DNA of 30,203 bases from the IMG/VR virus record IMGVR_UViG_3300025133_000441, positions 1-30,203 of that record; one strand, written 5' to 3'. Source of the DNA: a virus. The notes under the pieces were generated by a model. It ran no database searches. It was not told the origin of the DNA and was given only the letters and a program-made list of their open reading frames with translations. The stretch's first letter is position 1, and each line of letters starts with the position of its first letter. A program made the translations under genes and the position numbers. This document shows positions 793-26,470 of this stretch, piece after piece.

Positions 793-1301
793 ACTAAGCC
801 TGCCCTGGCCATAACAAGTGCGTCTGCACGATCATAATATTGTGGTTTTGGATTTCCATGCTTTGTATATTCAACAGTATATCCGAATTGAGGCTCATTG
901 TCAATCATAAATTTAAAAACCTGTTCCTTGGCTTTCGTCCCTCGTTTAATGGTAATCCCGCACTTCTTTCTAGCTGAAATTGCTGGGATAAATTGTGGTT
1001 GAATTCCAAATTCTTCAAAACACATCCAAGAGGTAATACCATTAAACTTAATTAATGTTGAGATTGTATGAGAAGATGATTTACCCATCATAAACATATT
1101 GAGAGCTGGCTCGATGAAAATGTGATCAATTGGATAATCAATTTCTTTAAGCTTTTCCTTAATAAATAATGATTTTGAAAACATGTCTGGAAAATGGTTT
1201 TTGTTGCGCATGTCCCAACTTCCGACTTCTTGTAGCTTTCCCTCTAAATTAATGATGGCATAGCCAGTTATAGAAGTAGAAATATCAAGTCCGAGGATCA
1301 T
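768..1301 (-). CDS. RuvC-like Holliday junction resolvase
   Basis: A 177-residue protein of the RNase H-like/RuvC fold, close to the 170 or so residues usual for RuvC. It opens with the signature ILGLDISTSITGYA, giving the first catalytic aspartate D6. A second acidic site, E64, sits in HIFIEP at the end of a beta strand. The C-terminal motif DRADALVMA supplies D157 and D160. These four acidic residues match the metal-binding set of RuvC. The enzyme is expected to cut four-way or branched DNA during phage recombination and before packaging. Its start ATG (1299-1301) overlaps the TGA of the upstream gene as ATGA, and its end overlaps the primase gene, so it sits in a tightly coupled three-gene set. 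Substrate preference (true Holliday junctions versus other branched DNA) is not readable from sequence. Confidence 0.9.
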   Translation of the reverse strand: MILGLDISTSITGYAIINLEGKLQEVGSWDMRNKNHFPDMFSKSLFIKEKLKEIDYPIDHIFIEPALNMFMMGKSSSHTISTLIKFNGITSWMCFEEFGIQPQFIPAISARKKCGITIKRGTKAKEQVFKFMIDNEPQFGYTVEYTKHGNPKPQYYDRADALVMARAGLVCLTENSK

Positions 1302-1654
1302 GTATCACTTATTTTTTCAAAACCGTTGTCTCGTTGGATTCCCAAACCTTTAATGGAATTAAGTCTTGGCTTTAATTGTCTGTGATAGTATGAATTAGAA
1401 TCCGCCGCAGTAGGAAGAATAAAACGAATAATATATTCGCCCACGAAAGAAGCCTTAGACGTTGATACTTCCCTCTCGCGATATACTGTTGTTACTTCAG
1501 GAATCGCTCGAATCTCATTCATAACCTCAGTTCGATCAATTGGTTTTGATTGGTCAATAGATAAAAAAAGAACAGCCTCATAAATGTCATGAGCCTTCTT
1601 GTCTTTCTCAAGCAAAAATTTTCTCCATTTTTTAAATTCTTTTTTCATTACCAT
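1298..1654 (-). CDS. Small protein of unknown function at head of the replication/recombination group
   Basis: I do not recognise this 118-residue protein. It begins with a highly charged, Lys-rich helix (roughly residues 1-22). The rest alternates as strand (EAVLFLSID), helix (EVMNEIRAIPEV), strand (TTVYRERE), strand (YIIRFILP), helix (RQLKPRLNSIKGL), strand, which fits a beta-alpha-beta-beta-alpha-beta, ferredoxin/ACT-like fold; this is my reading by eye. It contains no cysteine or obvious catalytic signature. It is the first gene after the structural block and its stop overlaps the resolvase start (ATGA), so a role in DNA metabolism is possible by context only. The first ATG is at 1652-1654, with a second in-frame ATG two codons later (1646-1648). 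Neither has a good Shine-Dalgarno sequence, so the true start is uncertain by two codons. Confidence 0.75.
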   Translation of the reverse strand: MVMKKEFKKWRKFLLEKDKKAHDIYEAVLFLSIDQSKPIDRTEVMNEIRAIPEVTTVYREREVSTSKASFVGEYIIRFILPTAADSNSYYHRQLKPRLNSIKGLGIQRDNGFEKISDT

Positions 1655-1660
1655 AAATAG
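1653..1660. promoter_or_regulatory. Recurrent intergenic octamer ATAAATAG, copy 1
   Basis: The plus strand reads ATAAATAG here, overlapping the first start codon of the 118-residue gene. The same octamer lies in the gaps before the 380-residue and 321-residue genes. Read on the plus strand it matches the core of the T4 late promoter (TATAAATA); read on the coding strand it is CTATTTAT. Its role is unknown. Confidence 0.3.
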
Positions 1661-1666
1661 ACTTAC

Positions 1667-1695
1667 ATTATATCAAAAATCCACTTTTAATTTAA
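1667..1695 (-). promoter_or_regulatory. Candidate sigma70-type promoter at the structural/replication junction
   Basis: On the minus strand a perfect TATAAT (bases 1667-1672) lies 17 bases downstream of TTAAAT (1690-1695), which keeps three of six bases of the -35 consensus. Transcription would begin near 1660, only a few bases before the start codon at 1654, giving an almost leaderless message; starting at 1648 would leave slightly more leader. It is positioned to drive the 118-residue gene, resolvase and primase independently of the structural genes. The local DNA is AT-rich, so a chance match is possible. Confidence 0.35.
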
Positions 1696-2815
1696 ATGTA
1701 ATATTGTCATTCTCTCTTTTCCTAACAGGATTTGCCATTTTCGCAATTGCAATTAAATTCTTTGACTCATCATAAATCCCGACATAGTTTATAAAGGTTG
1801 TTTTTTGGAAAGTTGCCTGGGTGTCAGAAAAAGAACTGCTCACCACATTTACTATAGAACTTTCTCTTTCTCGAAAAGATGCGCCACCAGATATATAATT
1901 TGTAAAATTTGTTTGAGCATCGTATTTCTTATACGTTGGGTTGTTAGAGTGGTTAAGCTCTCCCTTACCAGCTGCGGCGAACATTGTCATCGTTGGGACA
2001 TAATGGGTTCCGCTGAAATTCAGAGCAAAACTTGAACCAGTCAGCCCATTTCTCATGGTTGCGAAATCAATCCATCGTGGGGCTGCTGCACCGTCGCCAG
2101 TATAATCTTCGGTGTGAGACGCAAGACCCCAACTTCCAGTAAGGATGATGAATCCTTCATTGTACATAACAATGCCACCAACAGTTCCTGCGCCAGCGCC
2201 GGACCCAGATGCAACTTGTTTGAGTTGACCGTTTCGTGTGTTATCTTTTAATTCTGCAACCTCAGTGCCCGAGACATAAAACTTTAATGAAACCGTTCCT
2301 TTCTGGATGGAAGAGCCATAGAAGATTGATGGAATGCTTATGAGCCGCAACTCTTGAGAACTTTTGTCGCCAAGGCTTGAGCTATAAGAATAATCATAAT
2401 TTAATATCTCATAAGAATTCAGAGCATTTCTTAGCGCATTTATCTTTGGTCTTGCTGCGCCTTCCGCATAACGTGTGGAAGTAATGCTCGCAGACAAAGG
2501 ATAACTTCCTGTGATTTTCTCTCCATAGGCGAAGTCACTATTGAACTTTGATGTACCTACCGTGCTAAAGGATGCTAAACTTCCATCTTTAGTGACATAA
2601 GGATATATTAAATTATCTGATTTTCGATCAACGTTTAATTCGTATAAACTAATATAACCAGAAGGAACAAGCGTAACATTGGAAGTGTGCGAACCTGTGG
2701 TGTTTCCTTTGTTGTTATAAAAGAGTTGATTATCGTAAATGATAAAATTTGACTGAGGGTGTGTCTTCAGTTGGTTGTATAAAATATCATTTGAGCCGAA
2801 CTTATAATAAGGCAT
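1673..2815 (-). CDS. Virion (tail/baseplate-associated) protein, paralogue of the upstream 367-residue protein
   Basis: A 380-residue protein rich in Ser, Gly, Thr, Tyr and Asn, as expected for a beta-rich phage surface protein. Its last 45 or so residues (VGIYDESKNLIAIAKMANP, then an Arg/Lys-rich turn and a closing beta strand ending KVDF) match the C-terminus of the preceding gene product (VGLYSADNELLAVAKLSEP, ending RLDY). A central stretch (KGTVSLKF, later GGIVMYNEGFIILTGSW) also has a counterpart there (KGSFSLTL, GLIFYQAGIAVVSS). The two genes are therefore a tandem duplication that has diverged strongly. There is no signal peptide, membrane segment or enzyme motif. Its position at the end of the tail gene block suggests a minor tail, fibre or decoration protein. 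The start ATG (2813-2815) follows a 6-base inverted repeat and has no clear ribosome binding site. Confidence 0.82.
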   Translation of the reverse strand: MPYYKFGSNDILYNQLKTHPQSNFIIYDNQLFYNNKGNTTGSHTSNVTLVPSGYISLYELNVDRKSDNLIYPYVTKDGSLASFSTVGTSKFNSDFAYGEKITGSYPLSASITSTRYAEGAARPKINALRNALNSYEILNYDYSYSSSLGDKSSQELRLISIPSIFYGSSIQKGTVSLKFYVSGTEVAELKDNTRNGQLKQVASGSGAGAGTVGGIVMYNEGFIILTGSWGLASHTEDYTGDGAAAPRWIDFATMRNGLTGSSFALNFSGTHYVPTMTMFAAAGKGELNHSNNPTYKKYDAQTNFTNYISGGASFRERESSIVNVVSSSFSDTQATFQKTTFINYVGIYDESKNLIAIAKMANPVRKRENDNITFKLKVDF

Positions 2816-2833
2816 AACTATTGATAAATAGTT
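2816..2833 (-). repeat. Short inverted repeat just before the start of the 380-residue gene
   Basis: AACTAT and ATAGTT form perfect 6-base arms around a 6-base loop, directly abutting the start codon at 2815. The stem is AU-rich and weak, with no U-run after it, so it does not look like a terminator. It includes the octamer ATAAATAG (2824-2831), so the symmetry may be a by-product of that site or a small operator-like element. Confidence 0.3.
2824..2831. promoter_or_regulatory. Recurrent intergenic octamer ATAAATAG, copy 2
   Basis: Second copy of ATAAATAG (plus strand), in the 23-base gap between the 367- and 380-residue genes and inside the inverted repeat at 2816-2833. On the plus strand it is followed by TTT, as is the copy at 4938-4945. 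Confidence 0.3.
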
Positions 2834-2838
2834 TCATG

Positions 2839-3942
2839 TTAATAATCAAGACGAACACGAACTGTCATTTCATTTGTTGGATCTTTCTTTAACGGTTCGG
2901 AAAGTTTTGCAACAGCCAAAAGTTCGTTATCTGCGGAATATAATCCAACAGTTGTAATATAGGAAACCGGAGCATCTTGAGTATTATTCTTTACAACAAT
3001 CTTACTTGAACTTAAATATGTTGGGTTCGCGCTATAGTTATAATCGTTGTGATTAATTCGACAAAAGTGAATTGTAGAATTCAACTCTGTGGTATTGTTG
3101 AAACTCATATTATAAATGCGGTGGCGAAAGTCGTCACATGAGCCGCTTATAGCAGAACCACTCATTACTTGTCTTATTGATGCTGCACCAGCTGTGTTTC
3201 CAAAGTCTACATATCCAGCGCCTGCTTTAGAACCAGAGGTTGAGTTCAATATTCCTCCGACAGTTGTTTGTTGAAAGACCGAACTTGAAACAACTGCTAT
3301 TCCAGCCTGATAAAAAATTAAACCACAACTTGGTGTCCCTGATGCACCGCTTGAACATGAAAGAATTCCATATTCGCCCGCAGGTGAGTTTACTCGAAAA
3401 TCATTTTGGGCATTTGTATCTTGAATTACAATCCTGCTATTGTTCGCGCTAGCATAGGAGCCAGTGCCCAGAGTAAGAGAGAACGAACCTTTCTTTAATT
3501 CGTCTTTCCCCAATAGGCGACCAAAATTAATAAACACTGCGTCGAGCATTTTTTCCCCGCCGCCAGTAATATTGCCATCACGATCAAATGGCAGGATGTT
3601 TCCATTTTGATCATACCCCATCAAGACTTGCGCCATTTGGTTATACATGTTTATTTTTTTGGAATTTTGGATATTGCTAGAAGAAGATAGAGCACTTTTT
3701 GCACCTGTAATTCCGGAGTATCCAACAGTCAAATCAAAGATATGATTCGCAGAAGAACTTAAATAAGGATAATCATAAATACTCTGGAACATTCCGTGGG
3801 CATAGTTTTTAATGTTGTCGCCATTTGGAAACGTACCATAAGTACCGGACACTAGTGCGCCGGTCAAAGGGATTGCTTCGTGCAATAAAGTCTTTGTTGA
3901 GGTGATGTCGTTATTTAAAAATGTTTTATATGTGGTTGCCAT
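2839..3942 (-). CDS. Virion (tail/baseplate-associated) protein, first member of the paralogous pair
   Basis: A 367-residue Ser/Gly/Asn-rich protein of predicted beta structure with no recognised enzyme motif. It begins MATTYKTFLNNDITSTKTLL. Its C-terminal module, about residues 325-367 with VGLYSADNELLAVAKLSEP, a basic/acidic turn and a final RVRLDY strand, is shared with the next gene product. The phrase describing 'x-ity of a variable, stored state' is typical of small beta domains at the end of phage tail proteins, but I cannot name a family. The start ATG (3940-3942) has a good Shine-Dalgarno sequence (AAGGGG) formed by the last bases of the preceding gene and the 10-base gap. Likely role: tail, fibre or baseplate periphery component, by position and composition. 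Confidence 0.82.
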   Translation of the reverse strand: MATTYKTFLNNDITSTKTLLHEAIPLTGALVSGTYGTFPNGDNIKNYAHGMFQSIYDYPYLSSSANHIFDLTVGYSGITGAKSALSSSSNIQNSKKINMYNQMAQVLMGYDQNGNILPFDRDGNITGGGEKMLDAVFINFGRLLGKDELKKGSFSLTLGTGSYASANNSRIVIQDTNAQNDFRVNSPAGEYGILSCSSGASGTPSCGLIFYQAGIAVVSSSVFQQTTVGGILNSTSGSKAGAGYVDFGNTAGAASIRQVMSGSAISGSCDDFRHRIYNMSFNNTTELNSTIHFCRINHNDYNYSANPTYLSSSKIVVKNNTQDAPVSYITTVGLYSADNELLAVAKLSEPLKKDPTNEMTVRVRLDY

Positions 3943-3952
3943 TTATTTCCCC

Positions 3953-4918
3953 TTATACCTTTCTAGCAAACCTTACAGGAATGCTGATTGAATATCCGGT
4001 TGTTGCGCCAGTGACTTTGATGATTGAATCAATATATCTCAAAGATTGTACTGTTGCTGCGTTTCCTTTGAGGGTATAACCCGTTGTGCCCAGCTGCTCA
4101 AATAAATATGTGCTTGTTGCTAAGTCAGTTGATGCTTGAATTTTAAATCTCAATGAAGTTCCACGCGGACCTGCGATGGTGCTTGCGTCAGAAACATCAA
4201 CAATAAATTCTGGATCTGTATTTTTCGATAAATAATAACTGGCGATATTATCGTCATCAATATAAGAAACGTTGGCGGATTTGGCTGCTACACTTTGTCC
4301 GATTGAAACAATTGATCCAAACCTATTATCCATTTCAATAATATATTGTGTCTCATTAAGATCTGCATCAATTGTGTAAGTGTTGGCAATCTCTCCCGTA
4401 TCAAGACCTTGGTCGATACGAATATATGATCCGACTCCAGTGAATGGCTCATAACCGTTCATGACACCTTTGATCGCTGGCGAGCCAGTCCCAACCCAGC
4501 CATCCTTACTATCAAGAATACCATTGTTGTTGGAATCACCAGCAGTTGCCAAATTGGTTAAAACAGTGAAACTTCCATCAAACTGTCCTGAGCCGCTTGT
4601 TTCTGATTCTGTTGGTCCAGATAGCTTCATTACCGGCAAGTATAACAAATTTGTTCGCGGAATAGAAATCAATTTAGATTTCATCGTGGAGGTATTGTTT
4701 GTGAAAGCTTCCAAAACAGGTGTTTGCAAGATTTCTAAATCGTAATATGCACTCGCGCTTGGATGGCTTTTATTATATGAACCATAATTAATTTCATCGT
4801 CGCCAAGAGCAAATTTTACGATCTTAAATGACCCGTCGCCCTTTGCTAACCTAAATCGTCCAGTATCAGTTAATACTGCATCGAGAATAATGTCTCCACT
4901 ATTATCTAAAAATGCCAT
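3953..4918 (-). CDS. Virion structural protein with the 'LT-G-LAKG-FALGDDE' N-terminal module
   Basis: A 321-residue protein. Its N-terminus (residues 8-48) contains DIILDAVLTDTGRFRLAKG, then FKIVKFALGDDEINYGSY. This pattern is related to the N-terminus of the 362-residue protein encoded at 11586-12674 (QLTQYGKRLLSKG, then YYAFFDDGILYDS), so the two proteins probably share an assembly or attachment domain. The remainder is Ser/Thr/Gly-rich and beta-predicted, with a basic C-terminus ending VRFARKV. The N-terminal module most likely docks the protein on the tail or baseplate; that is inference. A strong ribosome binding site (AGGAGA) lies 7 bases before the ATG at 4916-4918, in a 42-base gap that also holds the third ATAAATAG copy. 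Confidence 0.85.
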   Translation of the reverse strand: MAFLDNSGDIILDAVLTDTGRFRLAKGDGSFKIVKFALGDDEINYGSYNKSHPSASAYYDLEILQTPVLEAFTNNTSTMKSKLISIPRTNLLYLPVMKLSGPTESETSGSGQFDGSFTVLTNLATAGDSNNNGILDSKDGWVGTGSPAIKGVMNGYEPFTGVGSYIRIDQGLDTGEIANTYTIDADLNETQYIIEMDNRFGSIVSIGQSVAAKSANVSYIDDDNIASYYLSKNTDPEFIVDVSDASTIAGPRGTSLRFKIQASTDLATSTYLFEQLGTTGYTLKGNAATVQSLRYIDSIIKVTGATTGYSISIPVRFARKV

Positions 4919-4937
4919 AAATATCTCCTATCTTCAT

Positions 4938-4945
4938 ATAAATAG
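4938..4945. promoter_or_regulatory. Recurrent intergenic octamer ATAAATAG, copy 3
   Basis: Third copy of the octamer, in the 42-base gap before the 321-residue gene. On the plus strand it reads TATAAATAG followed by TTT, which is an exact match to the T4 late promoter core, although it points away from the genes here. On the coding strand it is CTATTTATA, about 20 bases before the start codon and just before the ribosome binding site. Confidence 0.32.
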
Positions 4946-12674: not shown

Positions 12675-15600
12675 TTCTTAAATTTGGTTCCCACTTCTAA
12701 ATTTGCCAATTCAACTAATGAAAAATAGTCATATGGCCAATTATAACTATAAGGTATTTCGCCATTTTTAGTTGTAAAAAAGTCTTTACTGAATTTTTCG
12801 TCATCTGTTACGTCAGCAGTCAATTTGTAATAATCTTTGTTTGCCTTTTTCTTTACCTTAAATACCATCCAACGTATGTCCTCTGGTATCTCCCTGTCTC
12901 CAAAAAATTCAATAATTGGATATCTTTTGTGGGAAATCGCAGTCGAGTCTAGTTTGGCATCAGTTGAAATTTTGGGCATCAATCCTTGCCAAATATCAGC
13001 TAAATCTTGTTGGTCAAGATGATGTTTAAATTCAAACATATACATCACAAAAGGTTCAATACGATCATTTCCACTATTATAGGTGTTAAAGTCTAATTCT
13101 GGCGGTATGACATAATTGCCCATTTTTTCAATCATTTGAGCAACGCTAGATTCTGATTTTGGGATTGCTCTTTGTCGAGTTCCAAGATATTTTTCATTGA
13201 ATATACTGAAAAACTGATTAGTTGCGGTGTCTTCAGTGGCTGCCAAATGTCCATCACTGGCTTCCAAACTTTCTTTTATGAGATCATAAACCTCTGTCGC
13301 TTCTAAATAATTGGGGTAAGATTTCAATGAAAAGAAATAACGATCATCAAGAAAAGTGTTTTCTGTTGTAAATGCTTCGCGATCCGCCGATGGGCGAGTG
13401 AGATATGGAATTGCGACAATAGCTTCTGAAATGTCTTTACCGAATTGATTAACTTGACCGAGTTTTTGTTCTCGTTTATCGGAATTTCCGTCGAACATCA
13501 AAGTTGTCAGGTCTGTGCCTGTGCCATAAGGGGGCAGATTTGATAAAGATGGTTTAATGCTTAAAACAATGCCCTTGGCGGAAAGTGGGATTTCTCCATA
13601 GCCCGACCACATTCCACGAGGACCAGTAGCTGCTGGATAACTATTGGCACTAAAATCAAGGACTGGGGTTTCCATAAAAGGACTGATAACCCATCGATCT
13701 TTGTCTGCCACGATTTCACCAACCGTATCAACGTTTCCGGCTTTAGTTTGATCTGTCTTGCGTTCTTTAGAAATACCTCTCCAATTAATCGAAGAAGAAA
13801 GGTTCATAGCGCTAATTTTAGCTGGTGCTGGGTTTGAACTATTATAAGACGAACCAGTGATATCCTCAAACATCTGGTCCATCCCGTCATTAATAAAACT
13901 TGCAGTAGATTCGTTAAAAAAGGTGGACCAAGAAAAATTTTCATTACTGTTATTGGTAGTTGCCACAAACTTAAGTGTCATTCGTGATTCTCCATAAAAA
14001 TATGGAGGAGTATATGGGGCATAAGCGGGGGCTGAAGCTTTCGGATAGCTGGAGCCATTAGAGAGAGACGTTTTCCCCCAGACATTAAGATCCCCCGCAA
14101 TTGTGGGGGGACCAAACAACCTTCCATCAAAAAATGGTACACCACCAGTCAAGGGAAACACCCTTTCGTCTTCTTTGAGCATGACCAATTCAGGCGTTTT
14201 TGAAAGAGAGATATCTATATAATAAGTTTCACCAGGAATTATTTTGGGACCAACATCAGATTGGTGATCAGAATAAATTGTAGATAATTTATTATTCGCT
14301 AAGAAAAAATTCGGAATTTCAGCAAAAAAATTATTGACCGATGCTTTATATGATTTATAATTACGATCTGCCATGGCATCGGCGCGAATCGGACCGTCAA
14401 TGGATACCCAAGGAGTGCGCGGGCTCGTGACTTGCGAGTATAACGAATCATCCATCGTGTTGTTCCCTCTTTGATAAGATGGGTTTAACAAAAACAACTT
14501 AGAGTCTCCAACTGACTGACTGGGAGGAAGACCTACGTTACCAAGGGGATCTAAAATTGATTCAAAGGGGATTCTATAGTTTGCAGTCCCACTAAGTATG
14601 CCAGTGTCAGAAAAGTTACTAGCAAGTGTTAGATCAATGGTTGACCCGGTAAATGCTGCCCAATCCACTGAAAGTCCTGACTTGATAGTATTATACATAA
14701 TACCCGGTGCATAATATGGCTGAAGCAGTGATTGGACCGCAAGCGCACCCGAGTGGGTAGAACCAGCCGATGTATACGAGCCGCTTCTCCATCCGATTCC
14801 GTTTATATATGGAGCAATTGATTGAGAAAGCAAAGAAGCCAACTGTAAACTTCGTTGTTGTGGATAAAAACCGTCATAAGGGAGTAGCTTTTTAACCCCA
14901 TTACAGCGCAAAGTTATTTCAGATTTTTCATCAGGATATGAGCCTTCAAATTCTCCAAAATATTTTTGGAAATCGGAATTAGAATAATCATTAAAGAATT
15001 TTTCATCAAAAACACGCTCATCAGTAAAGATAGTCCAGCCAGCACCAGACTGAACTTTCAATCCGCCTTCCGCATTTGCACTAGATGTTATATCACCACC
15101 AGGTAAAGATAAAACCTTATCATTCTGACTTCGGAAATTATTCTTTAAATAATATGGCATATGTTCAGAGATCTTAAACTCTGGAATAACTGTCAAGCTT
15201 TTTCCAAGACCTCGAATATCTTCTGCATACTCTTCATAAGAATCGAAAAACGGTTTTTTGCCTGAAAGTTCTTCTGTGCGCCATTCTAATGGTCGATTAG
15301 CAAAACCTTGATTCGTCGCGTAGTTCCCGCCGCCTGCTTGTATGTATGTTGGAACCGTGAGGAATCCGGTTCTCAATTTTGGAAAATGGTAATAATAAGC
15401 TGAAGCTGTAGGATAATTAGCAGTTAAATAAGGAAGCCCAGAACTGGCGAGGCTGCTGGAAAGACCTGTCCCAGCTAAACCGACCAAAGTCCAATAATTG
15501 GCAGAATTTAACTCGCCCATATCACCAAAGGAAGATGGAGGTAGAGAGCCACTGGTTCCCATTCCATCAAATCTTTGGCTAACAGTGTCATAGGTAGAAT

Positions 15601-22696: not shown

Positions 22697-24208
22697 CTAC
22701 TCTTTTACACGAAATTTAAAAACTTCTGGCTGTTCTTCATACGCGCCGTTAATATAATAGAGAAATTTAATTCCATAAGAATATTTCGGTTCTAACAAGC
22801 GCATATCTAAGTCAAAATAGCTTCCTGATGTGTCATAAGAGAGTTTGGTGTGTTTTTCGCTACCAGTCCCATATGCCACTACATCATAGCTGTCGATTTC
22901 TCGATAAACCTTCCAATAAGCATCTTGAACGAAACTGTTCTCAATTTCTTTCGACGCTACAGAGTAAATAGTTGGGCTCCAATCTTTTAATCGAGTAAAC
23001 AAACGTAACCTCACAAGATCATTGTTGGAATATTCAGACACCAAATTGGTTATGGTTGTAACATAACTGGGGATAGAAAATATATTAGATGCGGCAAATG
23101 ATTTTGGCACAAATGTTCCAGTGTGATAATAAACACTCCCACTAAACCACCGATCATAAGCATAACTTGCAGTGGTAGAAAGCGCAAAGGACGCACTATA
23201 AACACCAGTAGAGACATGACCTCCTGTTACTGGTTGTTGTGGTGTTGTTGTTAATTGATCTCCCCCAGATGCCGAAGTATGGACGGTGACAAAAATACCA
23301 CCCGTGCCAACATCTGCTAGATTTGTGGGCTGACCTCTAACATAGTTGTATAAATAAAGAGTGTTAAGATTGTCTGCTGCGCTCAAATTAGAACTGGAGA
23401 CATAAAAATCTCCTCTATTATCTAGTGTGGAATTGTTCCAGCGAGCTTCAAGGACTGGTCGCTTAAAGAAATATTCGCTTTCTCGGGCAGAAAACCTCTT
23501 AGTATAATAAGAACGACTTCCGCTAGCCTGACTGGAAGTTAACATCAAGCCAATGCCATAATTTGAATAATCACCCGATAACCACTTCTCAACCAAGCCA
23601 GTGATCTTTATTTCGACATCTGCGGTTCCCTCGGTGTAAGATTGTTTATAATTAAATTCGTCATAAACAGACGTACCTGCACCCATCCACGATGCGCTTA
23701 AGAAACTTCCGCCCGAAGCAGTGACGCCCGGAACATTATCTTTGTCTACCCAGGGAGTGTGCGCAGAGGCATTAACCCAGTTAGAACCCGTACCGCCATA
23801 AGTCAGATCTGAATAATTCTCCAGATCGAGCCCGTAGCCCTCCTCCCATGATTGTGAAATCGGCGAAACGACTAGAGTAAAATCCGGTGGTAATGTTTTG
23901 TCGTGAGCAACATTAAAGACTCTTAAATAAAAATCAACACTTCCGCTTGCAGGAATCTTTCCCGCAGTGCGATCTGTTTGAATTTTATACAAACTATTCG
24001 GTGTTGTAATATCAGACGACACAACAGGAAATTGAAGAATGGTTTTTGCTTGCTCATTAGACGAAGAATTTGCTTGCGCATAGATCGAAAAAATCTCTAA
24101 AGAATCAGAACGACCCATGTTAGAACCTGATCCGCGAGTTATTAAGTTGGATTGAAAAGCATTTGTAAGTGTATTGTTCTTAATTGCTGTGTATCTTTTG
24201 ATAGCCAT
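22697..24208 (-). CDS. DNRLRE-type (CBM96-like) virion protein
   Basis: A 503-residue protein. The N-terminus (TAIKNNTLTNAFQSNLITRG, then SNMGRSDSLEIF) has the 'exposed Asn/Gly turn plus strand' pattern of DNRLRE domains. Next come a strand-rich segment (VDFYLRVFNV; VVSPISQSWEEGYG at about residues 110-128) and the hallmark ITGLVEKWLSGDYSNYGIGL at about residues 200-220, close to the 'I-T-x-L-V-x-x-W-x-x-G-x-x-x-N-Y-G' of that family. The C-terminal half is another beta-rich, Ser/Thr-rich region. DNRLRE domains are carbohydrate-binding or surface-adhesion beta sandwiches, so binding to host surface sugars or to a fibre is plausible. It lies 1 base after the gp6-like gene and 6 bases before the giant gene, so all three are likely made together. 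It has no enzyme residues that I can see. Confidence 0.82.
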   Translation of the reverse strand: MAIKRYTAIKNNTLTNAFQSNLITRGSGSNMGRSDSLEIFSIYAQANSSSNEQAKTILQFPVVSSDITTPNSLYKIQTDRTAGKIPASGSVDFYLRVFNVAHDKTLPPDFTLVVSPISQSWEEGYGLDLENYSDLTYGGTGSNWVNASAHTPWVDKDNVPGVTASGGSFLSASWMGAGTSVYDEFNYKQSYTEGTADVEIKITGLVEKWLSGDYSNYGIGLMLTSSQASGSRSYYTKRFSARESEYFFKRPVLEARWNNSTLDNRGDFYVSSSNLSAADNLNTLYLYNYVRGQPTNLADVGTGGIFVTVHTSASGGDQLTTTPQQPVTGGHVSTGVYSASFALSTTASYAYDRWFSGSVYYHTGTFVPKSFAASNIFSIPSYVTTITNLVSEYSNNDLVRLRLFTRLKDWSPTIYSVASKEIENSFVQDAYWKVYREIDSYDVVAYGTGSEKHTKLSYDTSGSYFDLDMRLLEPKYSYGIKFLYYINGAYEEQPEVFKFRVKE

Positions 24209-24209
24209 T

Positions 24210-26012
24210 TTATTTCACACTTCCCTTGATATCACTTTGAGGATATTTTATCTCCAAAACTGCATTTTTGGGAACCACTATATATCGGTCGTCTTCAGAC
24301 ATATTGTCATCAACATTAAAAAGAACTTCATTGGCATATCCTGTTCCTGTTTTTTGAAAAACCTTGACGCGGGTGGTGTCTAATATGCCGGGTGTTTTAT
24401 TTAAGTGTGAAAAGATTTCTCCAATATGGAACGGTTCACCAATTTCGAACTTCCTATCATAAAAAACCGATAGGCTCGCCACGGCAGTATTTAAGACCTC
24501 GAAAGGGTTTGATTCTACCGTTGAAACTGCATCAAATTCAATTCCAATGTTTATTATTTTAGCATCCAAAATATCAACTGTATCATTTATCATCCTCGAT
24601 TGATTCAACCATTGTTTTAAATTTTCTTTTATTGTAGAATTGGATCTAGAAAAATCTCCATTTGAATTCTCAGAGAGAATATAAATGTTCAAATTTCTTT
24701 TCAAAGAACCTTCGTCTTTAAAGATGGCGGCTCTTTTGACTGAGCCATATTGAGGTGGCATTGAATAACATAAGGATTTATAATCTAAAGCAGTAACTGC
24801 TCGATTTTGGGTAGAAAAGACGTTATTAATCCTTTGTTTAAGCTCATCAAGTGTTGGAAGACTTACATCTCCAACAATTGGTTCTTCATTGTTCACTTCT
24901 AAAGAGTTTACAACATTGGACATTTTAGATGTACTTAGCGAATTAGGATTCGCAAAGTCAAACCGAGGCTCTACAGTATTAACAAGAGAGTTCGCGGAAG
25001 CGTTCACATAGCCCATGGTATTCGCTCTATACGTTACTGTGAGGGTTGTGTTTGCCGGAGCTACTCCAAATTTATCTGTGGAAATTAAATTGGTAGGATC
25101 AAAAGAAACGTCAGGCACATAATCCTTTCCATGAACTTTCAAAACAGACTTGCTAGGATCGATTAGGGGATCTGTTGTAACATCCTTTTCACTGCCAAAG
25201 CCGAATTGAATAACTGTGGTGCTACCCAACAACTCAGAAGTGAATCTACGAGGAACTGCGAATGGTCGCATAAGCGATGTTGTTTCAGATGAATTTGCCC
25301 CTGTATTTTGCACTGAACGGTAAACCACATCTTGTGAGAGATAATCCACCTCATAATATTCATTACCCAAAGAATCCTCAATTGAGATAATTTCACTGAT
25401 ATTGGAACCTCCGAGTGAAATGCTAAGAAATTTCTGGAAATCTCCGATGGTAAACTTCTCCTCGTACTCTTGACCAGAGGCTACAAGACCAACAGCTTTA
25501 ATCGCATAAGAAGTGATATTTCCATTATCCTCATCGACAGTAGCAACTACTCTATCATTTTTTGGATCTGCAAAATTAATATCTTCATTCAGAGTAAAGG
25601 CAACTCCGTCAGCAGTCGATATTATGCTTCCCTTTTTTAATATTGGAATATAACTTTCATCGACTTCGCTAGTTGAAGCCCTAGATGGGATTATTATAAA
25701 AAAAGATGCCAAGCCCGATGAGACTGGAGTTCCTTTAAAATGAAACCCTAATTGCCTACCGATCCTTAAAACATTATTATATTCGATAGCCGTATCTAAA
25801 AAAGATTCGTTAACTTCATAATCGAGGTAGAAAGATAAAATGTCACCCACATAAGCCACCATATCGATCATCATTGAACCGAAACCGGCTTCACTAAAGT
25901 CCCTAAAAGTGTTGGGATAATATCGCTTCGCGTATTCTACCAAGTCGTTTTTGATAGTGTTAAAATCGCGAGATGTATATTTGATGGCTGGGTATTGTTT
26001 CTTGGTTGACAT
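24210..26012 (-). CDS. Baseplate wedge protein, gp6/gpJ-like (baseplate J family)
   Basis: A 600-residue protein clearly of the T4 gp6/P2 gpJ baseplate wedge family (T4 gp6 has 660 residues). The N-terminus carries the conserved block YPAIKYTSRDFNTIKNDL, then FRDFSEAGFGSMMIDMVAYV and a helix ending FYLDYEVNESFLDTA (residues 6-72). The baseplate J core at about residues 382-432 contains LPTLDELKQRINNVF and the typical AVTALDYKSLCYSMP. The protein would form the backbone of the wedge and, as a ring of dimers, the iris that opens when the tail contracts. The ATG at 26010-26012 has a good ribosome binding site (AGAGGA) in the 24-base gap after the gp25-like gene. No truncation or frameshift is seen. 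Confidence 0.95.
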   Translation of the reverse strand: MSTKKQYPAIKYTSRDFNTIKNDLVEYAKRYYPNTFRDFSEAGFGSMMIDMVAYVGDILSFYLDYEVNESFLDTAIEYNNVLRIGRQLGFHFKGTPVSSGLASFFIIIPSRASTSEVDESYIPILKKGSIISTADGVAFTLNEDINFADPKNDRVVATVDEDNGNITSYAIKAVGLVASGQEYEEKFTIGDFQKFLSISLGGSNISEIISIEDSLGNEYYEVDYLSQDVVYRSVQNTGANSSETTSLMRPFAVPRRFTSELLGSTTVIQFGFGSEKDVTTDPLIDPSKSVLKVHGKDYVPDVSFDPTNLISTDKFGVAPANTTLTVTYRANTMGYVNASANSLVNTVEPRFDFANPNSLSTSKMSNVVNSLEVNNEEPIVGDVSLPTLDELKQRINNVFSTQNRAVTALDYKSLCYSMPPQYGSVKRAAIFKDEGSLKRNLNIYILSENSNGDFSRSNSTIKENLKQWLNQSRMINDTVDILDAKIINIGIEFDAVSTVESNPFEVLNTAVASLSVFYDRKFEIGEPFHIGEIFSHLNKTPGILDTTRVKVFQKTGTGYANEVLFNVDDNMSEDDRYIVVPKNAVLEIKYPQSDIKGSVK

Positions 26013-26036
26013 ACTGTTCCTCTTTTTAAAAAATAA

Positions 26037-26426
26037 TTAGTTAATCGCCCCATTTACAATAATAGCATCGTTCAACTCTAACGGGATAATGCGATACTCT
26101 ACTTGCACATAGAGTGTGTTAGGTTCAGATGACGAATTCTGAGAAGCTGAATTAAAGACGATATCCGTTATTTCTAGGTAAGGTAAATATTTGTTAATCT
26201 GTTCTCTAATCCTGCTCGCAACTGAGTCATATATGGCGGGATTGTCGTTTTCAAAAAGAAATCTTTTAAGACCAATACCAAAATCAGGATTCATCATCTT
26301 TTCACCGGGAACCGTAAGAAGTAAGTTTTTTAAATTCTGTTTGACAAGAGTTACATAATCGCTTATCAAATCATATCCGGTGATGAGATTTCTGTTAATT
26401 GGCAGTCTTGGAGATAAATAAGGCAT
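26037..26426 (-). CDS. Baseplate wedge protein, gp25-like
   Basis: A 129-residue protein, nearly the length of T4 gp25 (132). It shows the family core: VPGEKMMNPDFGIGLKRFLF at residues 39-58, followed by a helix (YDSVASRIREQINKY) and ITDIVF strand. gp25-like proteins sit at the inner wedge, bind gp6 and contact the first sheath ring, linking baseplate opening to sheath contraction. Older annotations call the family lysozyme-like, but this is a structural protein; no catalytic residues are evident. The gene precedes the gp6-like gene as in P2 (W before J). The ATG at 26424-26426 has an AGAGGGA ribosome binding site in a 44-base gap that follows the large upstream gene. Confidence 0.95.
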   Translation of the reverse strand: MPYLSPRLPINRNLITGYDLISDYVTLVKQNLKNLLLTVPGEKMMNPDFGIGLKRFLFENDNPAIYDSVASRIREQINKYLPYLEITDIVFNSASQNSSSEPNTLYVQVEYRIIPLELNDAIIVNGAIN

Positions 26427-26470
26427 TAAAAATTCCCTCTGTAATAATTAGAACTTTCATTCATTTATTT

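Follow-up and report, generated by a model that had tools for sequence, protein, structure and literature searches.

Late transcription in phage T4 is tied to replication via the sliding clamp, and T4 late promoters, which are served by gp55, gp33, and gp45, consist of a -10-type core that precedes +1 by about one helical turn and stands in front of late genes, with core-to-start distances mostly of 19–42. In the text available of PMC2988020 and PMC7892883, these promoters are described as having no conserved -35 element, and in that of the latter, gp55 flips the bases at -12, -9, and -8 into pockets lined by N13, L54, R57, F86, H95, Y97, and T99. The late motif of Aeromonas phage Aeh1, CTAAATA, starts at -12 according to the available part of Nolan et al. 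2006 (PMC1524935). The subject of the present analysis is an eight-base word, ATAAATAG on the plus strand and CTATTTAT on the coding strand, in IMG/VR virus record IMGVR_UViG_3300025133_000441; this 30,203-base record, itself a 30-kb fragment, was analysed at full length and is referred to as the window. Among the options listed in an initial annotation was a sense-strand promoter element of this phage, and it is this option that has held up: judged from sequence comparisons, CTATTTAT is very probably the sense-strand core of a T4-type late promoter of this phage lineage, and the most likely interpretation is a new dialect of the T4 late promoter in a large group of uncultured phages. The computed basis comprises enrichment of the word in gaps in the sense direction, its link to virion genes, its fixed spacing to start codons, a sigma factor gene in the relatives, and a purine or ATG at the predicted +1.

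All long genes of the window lie on the minus strand and include a primase fragment, a RuvC-like resolvase, a gene of 118 amino acids (aa), several large unassigned genes, and gp6-like and gp25-like baseplate genes. Searches of PHROG and Pfam, covering part of the window's genes, gave no match in either for the 380-, 367-, 321-, and 362-aa genes, and the sole PHROG match of the 118-aa gene is weak and of unknown function (phrog_13363, 3e-4). The initial annotation was exact in placing ATAAATAG at 1653–1660, 2824–2831, and 4938–4945 (sites 1 to 3) and in noting that two copies, those at sites 2 and 3, are followed by TTT; neither strand holds a further copy. Its argument that three intergenic copies out of three are not expected by chance stands for the placement in gaps but not for copy number: three copies in 30 kb compare with 1.84 expected, and at least three were obtained in 24 of 100 shuffles, and thus copy number is not used as an argument here. 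The gaps do make up well under 1% of the window, the ten same-strand gaps adding up to 178 bp (0.59%). A sister word missed at first reading, CTAATTA, occupies the gaps of the gp6-like and gp25-like genes (Table 1), and the coding-strand pattern CTAWTTA is found in five of the ten same-strand gaps—exactly the five of 15 nt or more, and none of the five with at most 10 nt. When the ten gaps, taken together with 8-nt flanks, were shuffled 20,000 times with dinucleotides preserved, never more than three gaps carried the pattern. Outside those five gaps, coding-strand CTAWTTA occurs in the window only at 24–30, 15414–15420, and 22965–22971, and antisense CTAWTTA is absent from the whole window.

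Read on the plus strand, the word had been equated with the T4 late promoter core, which is correct for site 3 alone, where the full TATAAATA is present; site 1 reads CATAAATA and site 2 GATAAATA. A T4 late promoter at TATAAATA on the plus strand, driving antisense RNA over the tail genes, would find a footing in site 3, in the exact reverse complementarity of TATTTATA and TATAAATA, and in the TATTTATA-like words that precede late genes in a related phage, Flavobacterium phage immuto. Sites 1 and 2, however, are not TATAAATA, and relatives of the window provide further evidence on the direction in which the word acts.

Loci of relatives were fetched by protein similarity, without use of the motif: the gp6-like search left 80 loci of 169 and the search with the 321-aa gene 80 of 215, and 130 of 165 records were kept for the gap set after removal of near-duplicates, three copies of the window, and one immuto locus. 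Across the 356 same-strand gaps of these 130 records, CTATTTAT occurs 66 times (2.4 expected) and has the top score among all 8-mers, while the count of ATAAATAG is zero. A strand count and motif discovery in gaps had both been suggested by the initial annotation, and both favour the sense strand. In ten large contigs, CTATTTAT is found 165 times on the majority strand versus 15 on the other and CTAATTAT 75 versus 13; a reversed-word control gave 78 forward and 93 reverse. A k-mer ranking of gaps was carried out on eight contigs (G001–G007 and G010), which were read in pieces with crude gene calls (longest open reading frame, ORF) and yielded 586 same-strand gaps. Here, CTATTTA was counted 104 times in sense and twice in antisense, CTAATTA 49 and 4, CTACTTA 15 and 4, and CTAGTTA 14 and 3. 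The fourth base of the motif is therefore free, and most other single changes are without enrichment; GTATTTA (16/4) and, at low counts, CTATCTA (8/2), CTATTGA (8/2), and CTATGTA (4/1) also lean towards sense. The C lies outside TATAAATA, and the sense bias disappears when it is replaced by A or T, which speaks against an antisense T4 core. Terminator-like hairpins lie on the upstream side of the motif in 25 cases and on the downstream side in four, a tally in which motifs within a hairpin were assigned to neither side and only gaps sharing identical first 60 bases were dropped. Counts by gap type (9 motifs in 86 convergent gaps, 19 in 90 divergent gaps) are noisy, since crude ORF calls yield false opposite-strand genes. 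When the same ranking was applied to T4 as a control, the ten top 8-mers were terminator words and others, with TATAAATA not among them; ranking of gap k-mers is thus no general finder of late promoters, and a direct scan for ATAAATA serves as the T4 control.

The same 586 gaps contain a second class of signal, CTTGACA, at 45 occurrences versus 2.35 expected. In the gaps of contig G006, TTGACA lies outside the ten top 7-mers, which include TTGAATA and CGTATTA; this suggests that the early promoter of that contig, and perhaps also the host sigma factor, is not the same as elsewhere. In those of G007, the words CCTACCC and CTACCCA are strongly enriched (CCTACCC 11 versus 0.31).

Which genes carry each signal was assessed in the eight contigs with annotated proteins of immuto and of Microcystis phage Mel-JY01 as baits, counting CTANTTA at up to 60 nt from the start. 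The motif precedes genes for head completion (7/7), the gp6-like protein (6/8), tail tube (4/5), tail completion (3/4), the gp25-like protein (1/2), and PhoH (5/8); the sheath gene has it in 3/7 at this distance and in 7/7 within about 90 nt. It was found before none of the genes for DnaB, ssb, exonuclease, primase, GroEL, and RecA, each of which was located in all eight contigs, and it is TTGAC that precedes these in 5, 5, 3, 2, 4, and 0 of eight, respectively, often in the form TTGACA-N17-TATAAT. Orthologous gaps give a similar account when distinct upstream regions are searched for CTANTTA from 70 nt upstream of the start to 9 nt past it: the motif is present in 57/57 regions for the 321-aa gene, 52/62 for the gp6-like gene, and, with the window included, 8/8 for the 118-aa gene, compared with 1/66, 2/59, and 1/63 for the 367-, 3339-, and 503-aa genes, and it was not found before the 1056-, 1147-, and 362-aa orthologues (0/6, 0/1, and 0/3 regions). 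The antisense word occurs in 0–3 regions per gene (321-aa, 2; gp6-like, 2; gp25-like, 3). The motif thus tracks the downstream gene and, as expected of a T4-type late promoter, stands before late (virion) rather than early genes, the exceptions being capsid, portal, terminase, protease, and the run led by the 118-aa gene.

Spacing was examined for 56 usable orthologues of the 321-aa gene, taking the motif nearer the start where two were present. The distance from motif to start has a median of 28 nt (interquartile range 27–30) and a standard deviation of 5.5, whereas that from the upstream stop codon to the motif has a standard deviation of 15.8; the motif is thus held in place relative to the start that follows it and only loosely to the stop that precedes it. 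Over 57 distinct orthologous upstream regions of this gene, the motif-to-ATG range is 23–50 nt. Pooling CTAWTTA sites gave 486, or 371 once near-duplicates were removed. In these 371 sites, the distance from the C of the motif to the called start has its main peak at 23–31 nt and a separate spike at 11 nt (15 sites) and 12 nt (16 sites), all ATG and distributed over 23 protein families; no called ATG lies at 9 or 10 nt. Where starts lie at least 36 nt away (86 sites), the base at index 12, counted from the C, is a purine in 79%. The Aeh1 motif starting at -12 puts +1 at index 12, the very position predicted for the clade. The ATG spike and the purine peak thus fit a short A/T-rich -10-type core with a predicted +1 about 12 nt after the base at -12. 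Placed on the sense side like the weak -35-like element described below, they leave the proposal of antisense late promoters unsupported; together with the fixed spacing, the link to the downstream gene, and the position after terminator-like hairpins, they make that proposal extremely unlikely.

Shine–Dalgarno-like words accompany 3/31 of the starts at 11–12 nt, versus 137/167 of those at 23–31 nt and 537/1034 of the genes without a motif; the low rate in the first class is partly built in, as its Shine–Dalgarno window overlaps the promoter core. An ATAG-like tract that follows many motifs is attributable to Shine–Dalgarno words, since TAGGAG (55 versus 20.7) and AAGGAG (84 versus 28.1) have similar enrichment ratios. 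In the 118-aa gene, an in-frame ATG follows the C at 12 nt in seven of eight regions and at 13 nt in the other. The start called by the ORF finder (ORF 1298–1654, minus strand) overlaps the promoter core and is no ATG in four of the eight (L090, L102, L108, and L119), and thus the conserved start is Met3 and the protein is probably of 116 aa. From the ATG spike, this spacing, and the Aeh1 geometry, the gene is predicted to start at Met3 and to be leaderless. Sites with ATG at the predicted +1 (31 of the 371, and the 118-aa gene) would probably give leaderless late mRNA, and a passing remark in the available text of PMC5312081 has it that phage transcripts are often leaderless. For the 380-aa gene, 11 of its 21 motif-bearing regions place the motif 14–16 nt from ATG. 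Direct scans found starts at 11–13 nt in 0/33 ATAAATA sites of T4 and 0/28 CTAAATA sites of Aeh1, and at 10–13 nt in 4/38 sites of immuto.

In five relatives (L125, L141, L146, L149, and L160), a terminator-like hairpin directly 5′ of ATG, ACTGCC-TATTTATTTTA-GGCAGT-TTTT, has the core in its loop. The predicted +1 of this composite element falls at the 3′ arm, and late RNA would therefore be without the hairpin that stops read-through.

Leaderless messages could also arise by processing, and strand bias alone is compatible with a signal acting at the RNA level in read-through mRNA, be it a hairpin or a processing site with cleavage some 12 nt downstream. Site 2 is indeed a perfect 7-bp inverted repeat (AACTATT-TATC-AATAGTT) adjoining ATG, and some relatives, L086 and L088 among them, retain part of the repeat. 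By eye, however, it is seen neither at the 321-aa and gp6-like gaps nor at most 380-aa gaps; the hairpin at site 2, although real, was rejected as the signal on the grounds of this partial conservation. Moreover, the word follows terminators by 25 to 4, information is present 14–21 nt upstream of the core, where -35 contact would occur, early and late gene sets have different promoter-like signals, and a late-sigma homologue is encoded in 10/10 large relatives; an RNA-level signal is accordingly very unlikely. Much the same may be said of an operator bound by a regulator of phage or host origin, or of a host promoter element distinct from the core of a phage late sigma factor. Such a role is compatible with sequence alone, but it is rendered very improbable by the tight geometry to the predicted +1 and to start codons, by the agreement of C-12, T-11, and A-10 with the Aeh1 late motif as given in the accessible part of its description, and by the sigma-70-type CTTGACA class that the same genomes already possess. 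A literature match for CTATTTA in phage Felix O1 belongs, in the portion of the source available, to a table of terminators and not of promoters. In the open-licence papers searched, no description was found of this promoter signal or of leaderless late mRNAs associated with it.

The search for a gp55-like late sigma factor suggested by the initial annotation proved fruitful. The profile of the T4 gp55 family, phrog_234, finds one ORF in each of the ten large contigs and matches all ten member proteins (best 7.4e-7), consistent with homology to the gp55/sigma2 domain, and a gp55-like ORF is present in 9/12 contigs of nearer relatives, most of which are shorter. The ten members are of 225–274 aa as read and share 54%–66% identity with the first member; at least 534 stretches in IMG/VR are confirmed to encode such a protein. 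The gene lies outside the window fragment, and in the L007 and L009 contigs, it is located 10–12 kb upstream of the gp6-like gene. Another late sigma family, phrog_12791, matched 0/10, a result that is uninformative because its control matched nowhere. An AlphaFold2 model built from 50 sequences (pLDDT 80, pTM 0.45) was compared with known structures, and the 50 matches listed were, judged by their titles, sigma factors or polymerase complexes holding one. Model residues from about 2 to 111 align with sigma2 structures (sigma2 alone at a root-mean-square deviation, rmsd, of about 2.5–3.6, with Z of, for example, 8.0–8.5 at 2.5–3.4), and for the C-terminal part, residues 132–222, the match is to sigma4 of Fusobacterium sigma-H (3mzy; Z 7.6, rmsd 2.8, 74 residues). 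The latter is the single match to the C-terminal half alone among the 50 listed, and many whole-length matches have an rmsd above 10. Where the gp55 family has no sigma4 domain, the protein is thus predicted from the model to have an extra C-terminal sigma-4-like domain. This extra domain, in the clade as in immuto and Mel-JY01, occupies the place of the tail in T4 and Aeh1, and visual inspection of the alignment of ten clade members showed no counterpart of the sliding-clamp-binding tail (LDFLYE in T4, LSFLED in Aeh1).

Upstream of the core, too, the clade departs from T4. Across 334 sites, information stands at 0.27 at index -15, 0.16 at -14, 0.12 at -16, and 0.11 at -20, compared with a scrambled maximum of 0.047, and the bases concerned (G at index -21/-20 and W at -16 to -14) make up a weak -35-like element, roughly GG-n3/4-WWW at -33 to -26. 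Such an element, weak yet above the null, is not a feature of T4-type late promoters. The sigmaE -35 consensus is GGAACTT, and the GG-n3/4-WW pattern of the clade resembles it, just as the predicted sigma2-like and sigma4-like domains recall the two-domain extracytoplasmic function (ECF) factors sigmaE and SigH; the clade sigma differs from these in being phage-encoded and linked to T4-type late genes, with a weak upstream element and a modest fold match. The T4 gp45 clamp family, phrog_223, went undetected in all 13 relatives searched and likewise in immuto and Mel-JY01 (T4 control, 3.4e-86). A clamp-loader profile matches seven of the eight contigs, strongly in G002 (2.1e-17) and at 1.7e-5 to 0.042 in the others, as well as Mel-JY01 (6.0e-77) and T4, but neither G001 nor immuto. 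The relatives may have a more distant clamp or may rely on that of the host.

The clade core, ACTAWTTAT, departs from that of T4 exactly at the three flipped positions, all of them A in T4, with C at -12, W at -9, and T at -8. The T4 consensus TATAAATA occurs only 0–2 times per genome in gaps near starts of the eight relatives. Distant homology of the sigma factor to gp55, a -10-type core about one turn from +1, and late-gene targets are shared with T4; the core at these positions, the weak -35-like element, the predicted sigma-4-like domain, and the lack of a detected gp45-type clamp set the clade apart. Aeh1 is closer in its promoter, with a single short -10-type core before late genes, C at -12, T-11, A-10, T-7, and A-6, and 68% A at index 12 (28 sites, own scan), but it has A-9 and A-8 where the clade has W-9 and T-8, and its gp55 (173 aa from the first ATG, open frame 186) ends in a T4-like C-terminal tail and has no extra domain. 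The cultured relatives immuto and Mel-JY01 share a TATTTAT core before virion genes and a gp55-like protein 30%–32% identical with the same C-terminal extension, their -12 base being mainly A instead of the clade's C; CTAWTTA is found in only 3/76 gaps in Mel-JY01 and in 15/89 in immuto. Near starts, the -12 base is A in 27 and C in none in T4, C in 23 and A in 5 in Aeh1, A in 34 and C in 12 in immuto, and A in 18 and C in 3 in Mel-JY01. In the eight contigs, C is the commonest base before TATTTA in 8/8 and before TAATTA in 6/8 (with a tie in G001 and none in G002). Pocket residues partly follow suit: gp55 position 95 is H in T4 and Aeh1 (A-9) and F in the clade members shown, immuto, and Mel-JY01 (W or T at -9 in the clade). 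At position 57, R goes with A-12 in T4 and Mel-JY01, and with C-12 the residue is T in the clade and H in Aeh1; immuto, with mixed A/C, has T. Y97 is kept. Position 99 runs counter to a simple pocket match, Aeh1 and the clade sharing S there although the former has A-8 and the latter T-8. The co-change of pocket residues and promoter bases is a correlation over few lineages.

Several observations weigh against this interpretation. All of the evidence is computational, with RNA 5′ ends being predicted in this clade, and the motif and the sigma factor are tied to each other solely by co-occurrence. The sigma factor has weak PHROG matches in the contigs (7.5e-8 to 9.8e-4), no more than 2/10 members match Pfam sigma-70 region 2 (best 0.026), a PDB sequence search with the gp55-like protein gave nothing relevant, and Foldseek on the model gave no match at E ≤ 0.001, although seven of its ten best matches are sigma factors; Z values of 8–9 in a helical protein can reflect a common arrangement. 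An any-frame count of ATG gives a weaker spike (11, 11, 20, 21, and 6 at 9–13 nt), CTAATTAT is hardly strand-biased in contig G003 (10 versus 6), and T4 itself has ten CTAWTTA sites near starts, and thus single sites can arise by chance. The motif is absent from many relatives at two of the window's own positions, being present in 21/57 regions of the gp25-like (129-aa) gene and 21/44 of the 380-aa gene, and in the window, the genes for RuvC and primase that the 118-aa promoter leads are not virion genes. Finally, no CTANTTA lies within 60 nt upstream of terminase, portal, or protease (0/8 each) or major capsid (0/7) genes, although these rank as prime late genes; they mostly have tight junctions, two of them (one capsid gene, one terminase gene) were truncated by the edge of a piece, and their transcription would have to come from upstream.

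On the late promoter reading, the consensus A-C-T-A-W-T-T-A-T would span -13 to -5; its C would occupy -12, about 12 nt ahead of the transcription start. The phage gp55-like late sigma factor would recruit host RNA polymerase to this core for transcription of virion genes in the sense direction; both recognition of the motif by this factor and the late timing are presumed. The C-terminal sigma-4-like domain may contact the weak GG-n3/4-WWW near -33 to -26, activation may proceed without a T4-type sliding clamp, and sites with ATG at +1, that of the 118-aa gene included, would yield leaderless late mRNA. The complete picture—a widespread uncultured T4-like clade in which a two-domain gp55 relative reads a -10 core rewritten at the flipped bases plus a -35 element, clamp-free, with promoter placement giving a leaderless set beside mRNAs led by Shine–Dalgarno sequences—is put forward tentatively, as a possibility about which doubt and confidence are nearly matched.

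Table 1. Predicted promoter cores and associated features of the window.
Feature	Position	Strand	Remarks
Predicted late promoter core CTATTTA, 118-aa gene (118aa-RuvC-primase run)	1654..1660	-	Predicted +1 at 1648
Probable true start codon, 118-aa ORF (Met3, 116-aa product)	1646..1648	-	Coincides with predicted transcription start
TATAAT just 3′ of TGA stop of 380-aa gene	1667..1672	-	TATAAT in 7/8 regions, TACAAT in L102
Predicted late promoter core CTATTTA, 380-aa gene	2825..2831	-	Predicted +1 at 2819, predicted 4-nt leader, no Shine–Dalgarno
Predicted late promoter core CTATTTA, 321-aa gene	4939..4945	-	Predicted +1 at 4933, 15-nt leader, AGGAG at 4929-4925
Predicted late promoter core CTAATTA, gp6-like baseplate wedge gene (600 aa)	26034..26040	-	Predicted +1 about 26028
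Predicted late promoter core CTAATTA, gp25-like baseplate gene (129 aa)	26445..26451	-	Predicted +1 about 26439
321-aa gene	3953..4918	-	No PHROG/Pfam match; most consistently motif-led gene of the window
gp6-like baseplate wedge gene	24210..26012	-	phrog_219, phrog_10646, phrog_6
gp25-like baseplate wedge gene	26037..26426	-	phrog_261, phrog_43

The TATAAT beside the 118-aa gene may form part of an extended -10 (TGATATAAT) of an early or middle promoter for the 118aa-RuvC-primase run, in tandem with the predicted late promoter. With regard to the wider gene content of the relatives, GroEL-like genes are found in all eight contigs, as are family-A DNA polymerase matches (seven of the latter over the cut-off), and the family-B polymerase of Mel-JY01, used as bait, had no match in these contigs. 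Many of the relatives' contigs are presumably marine, going by their project numbers.

The leaderless late class would be a sharp and testable feature of these phages. If the sigma4-bearing version of the factor does indeed act clamp-free, then systems of the gp55 type need not be coupled to replication. The bases altered in the promoter are the three that T4 gp55 flips, and two pocket residues change with them, which would make the clade a natural experiment in the co-evolution of sigma factor and promoter. For a common clade of uncultured phages, the motif likely provides a late-promoter grammar by which late operons and true start codons may be read from sequence alone.

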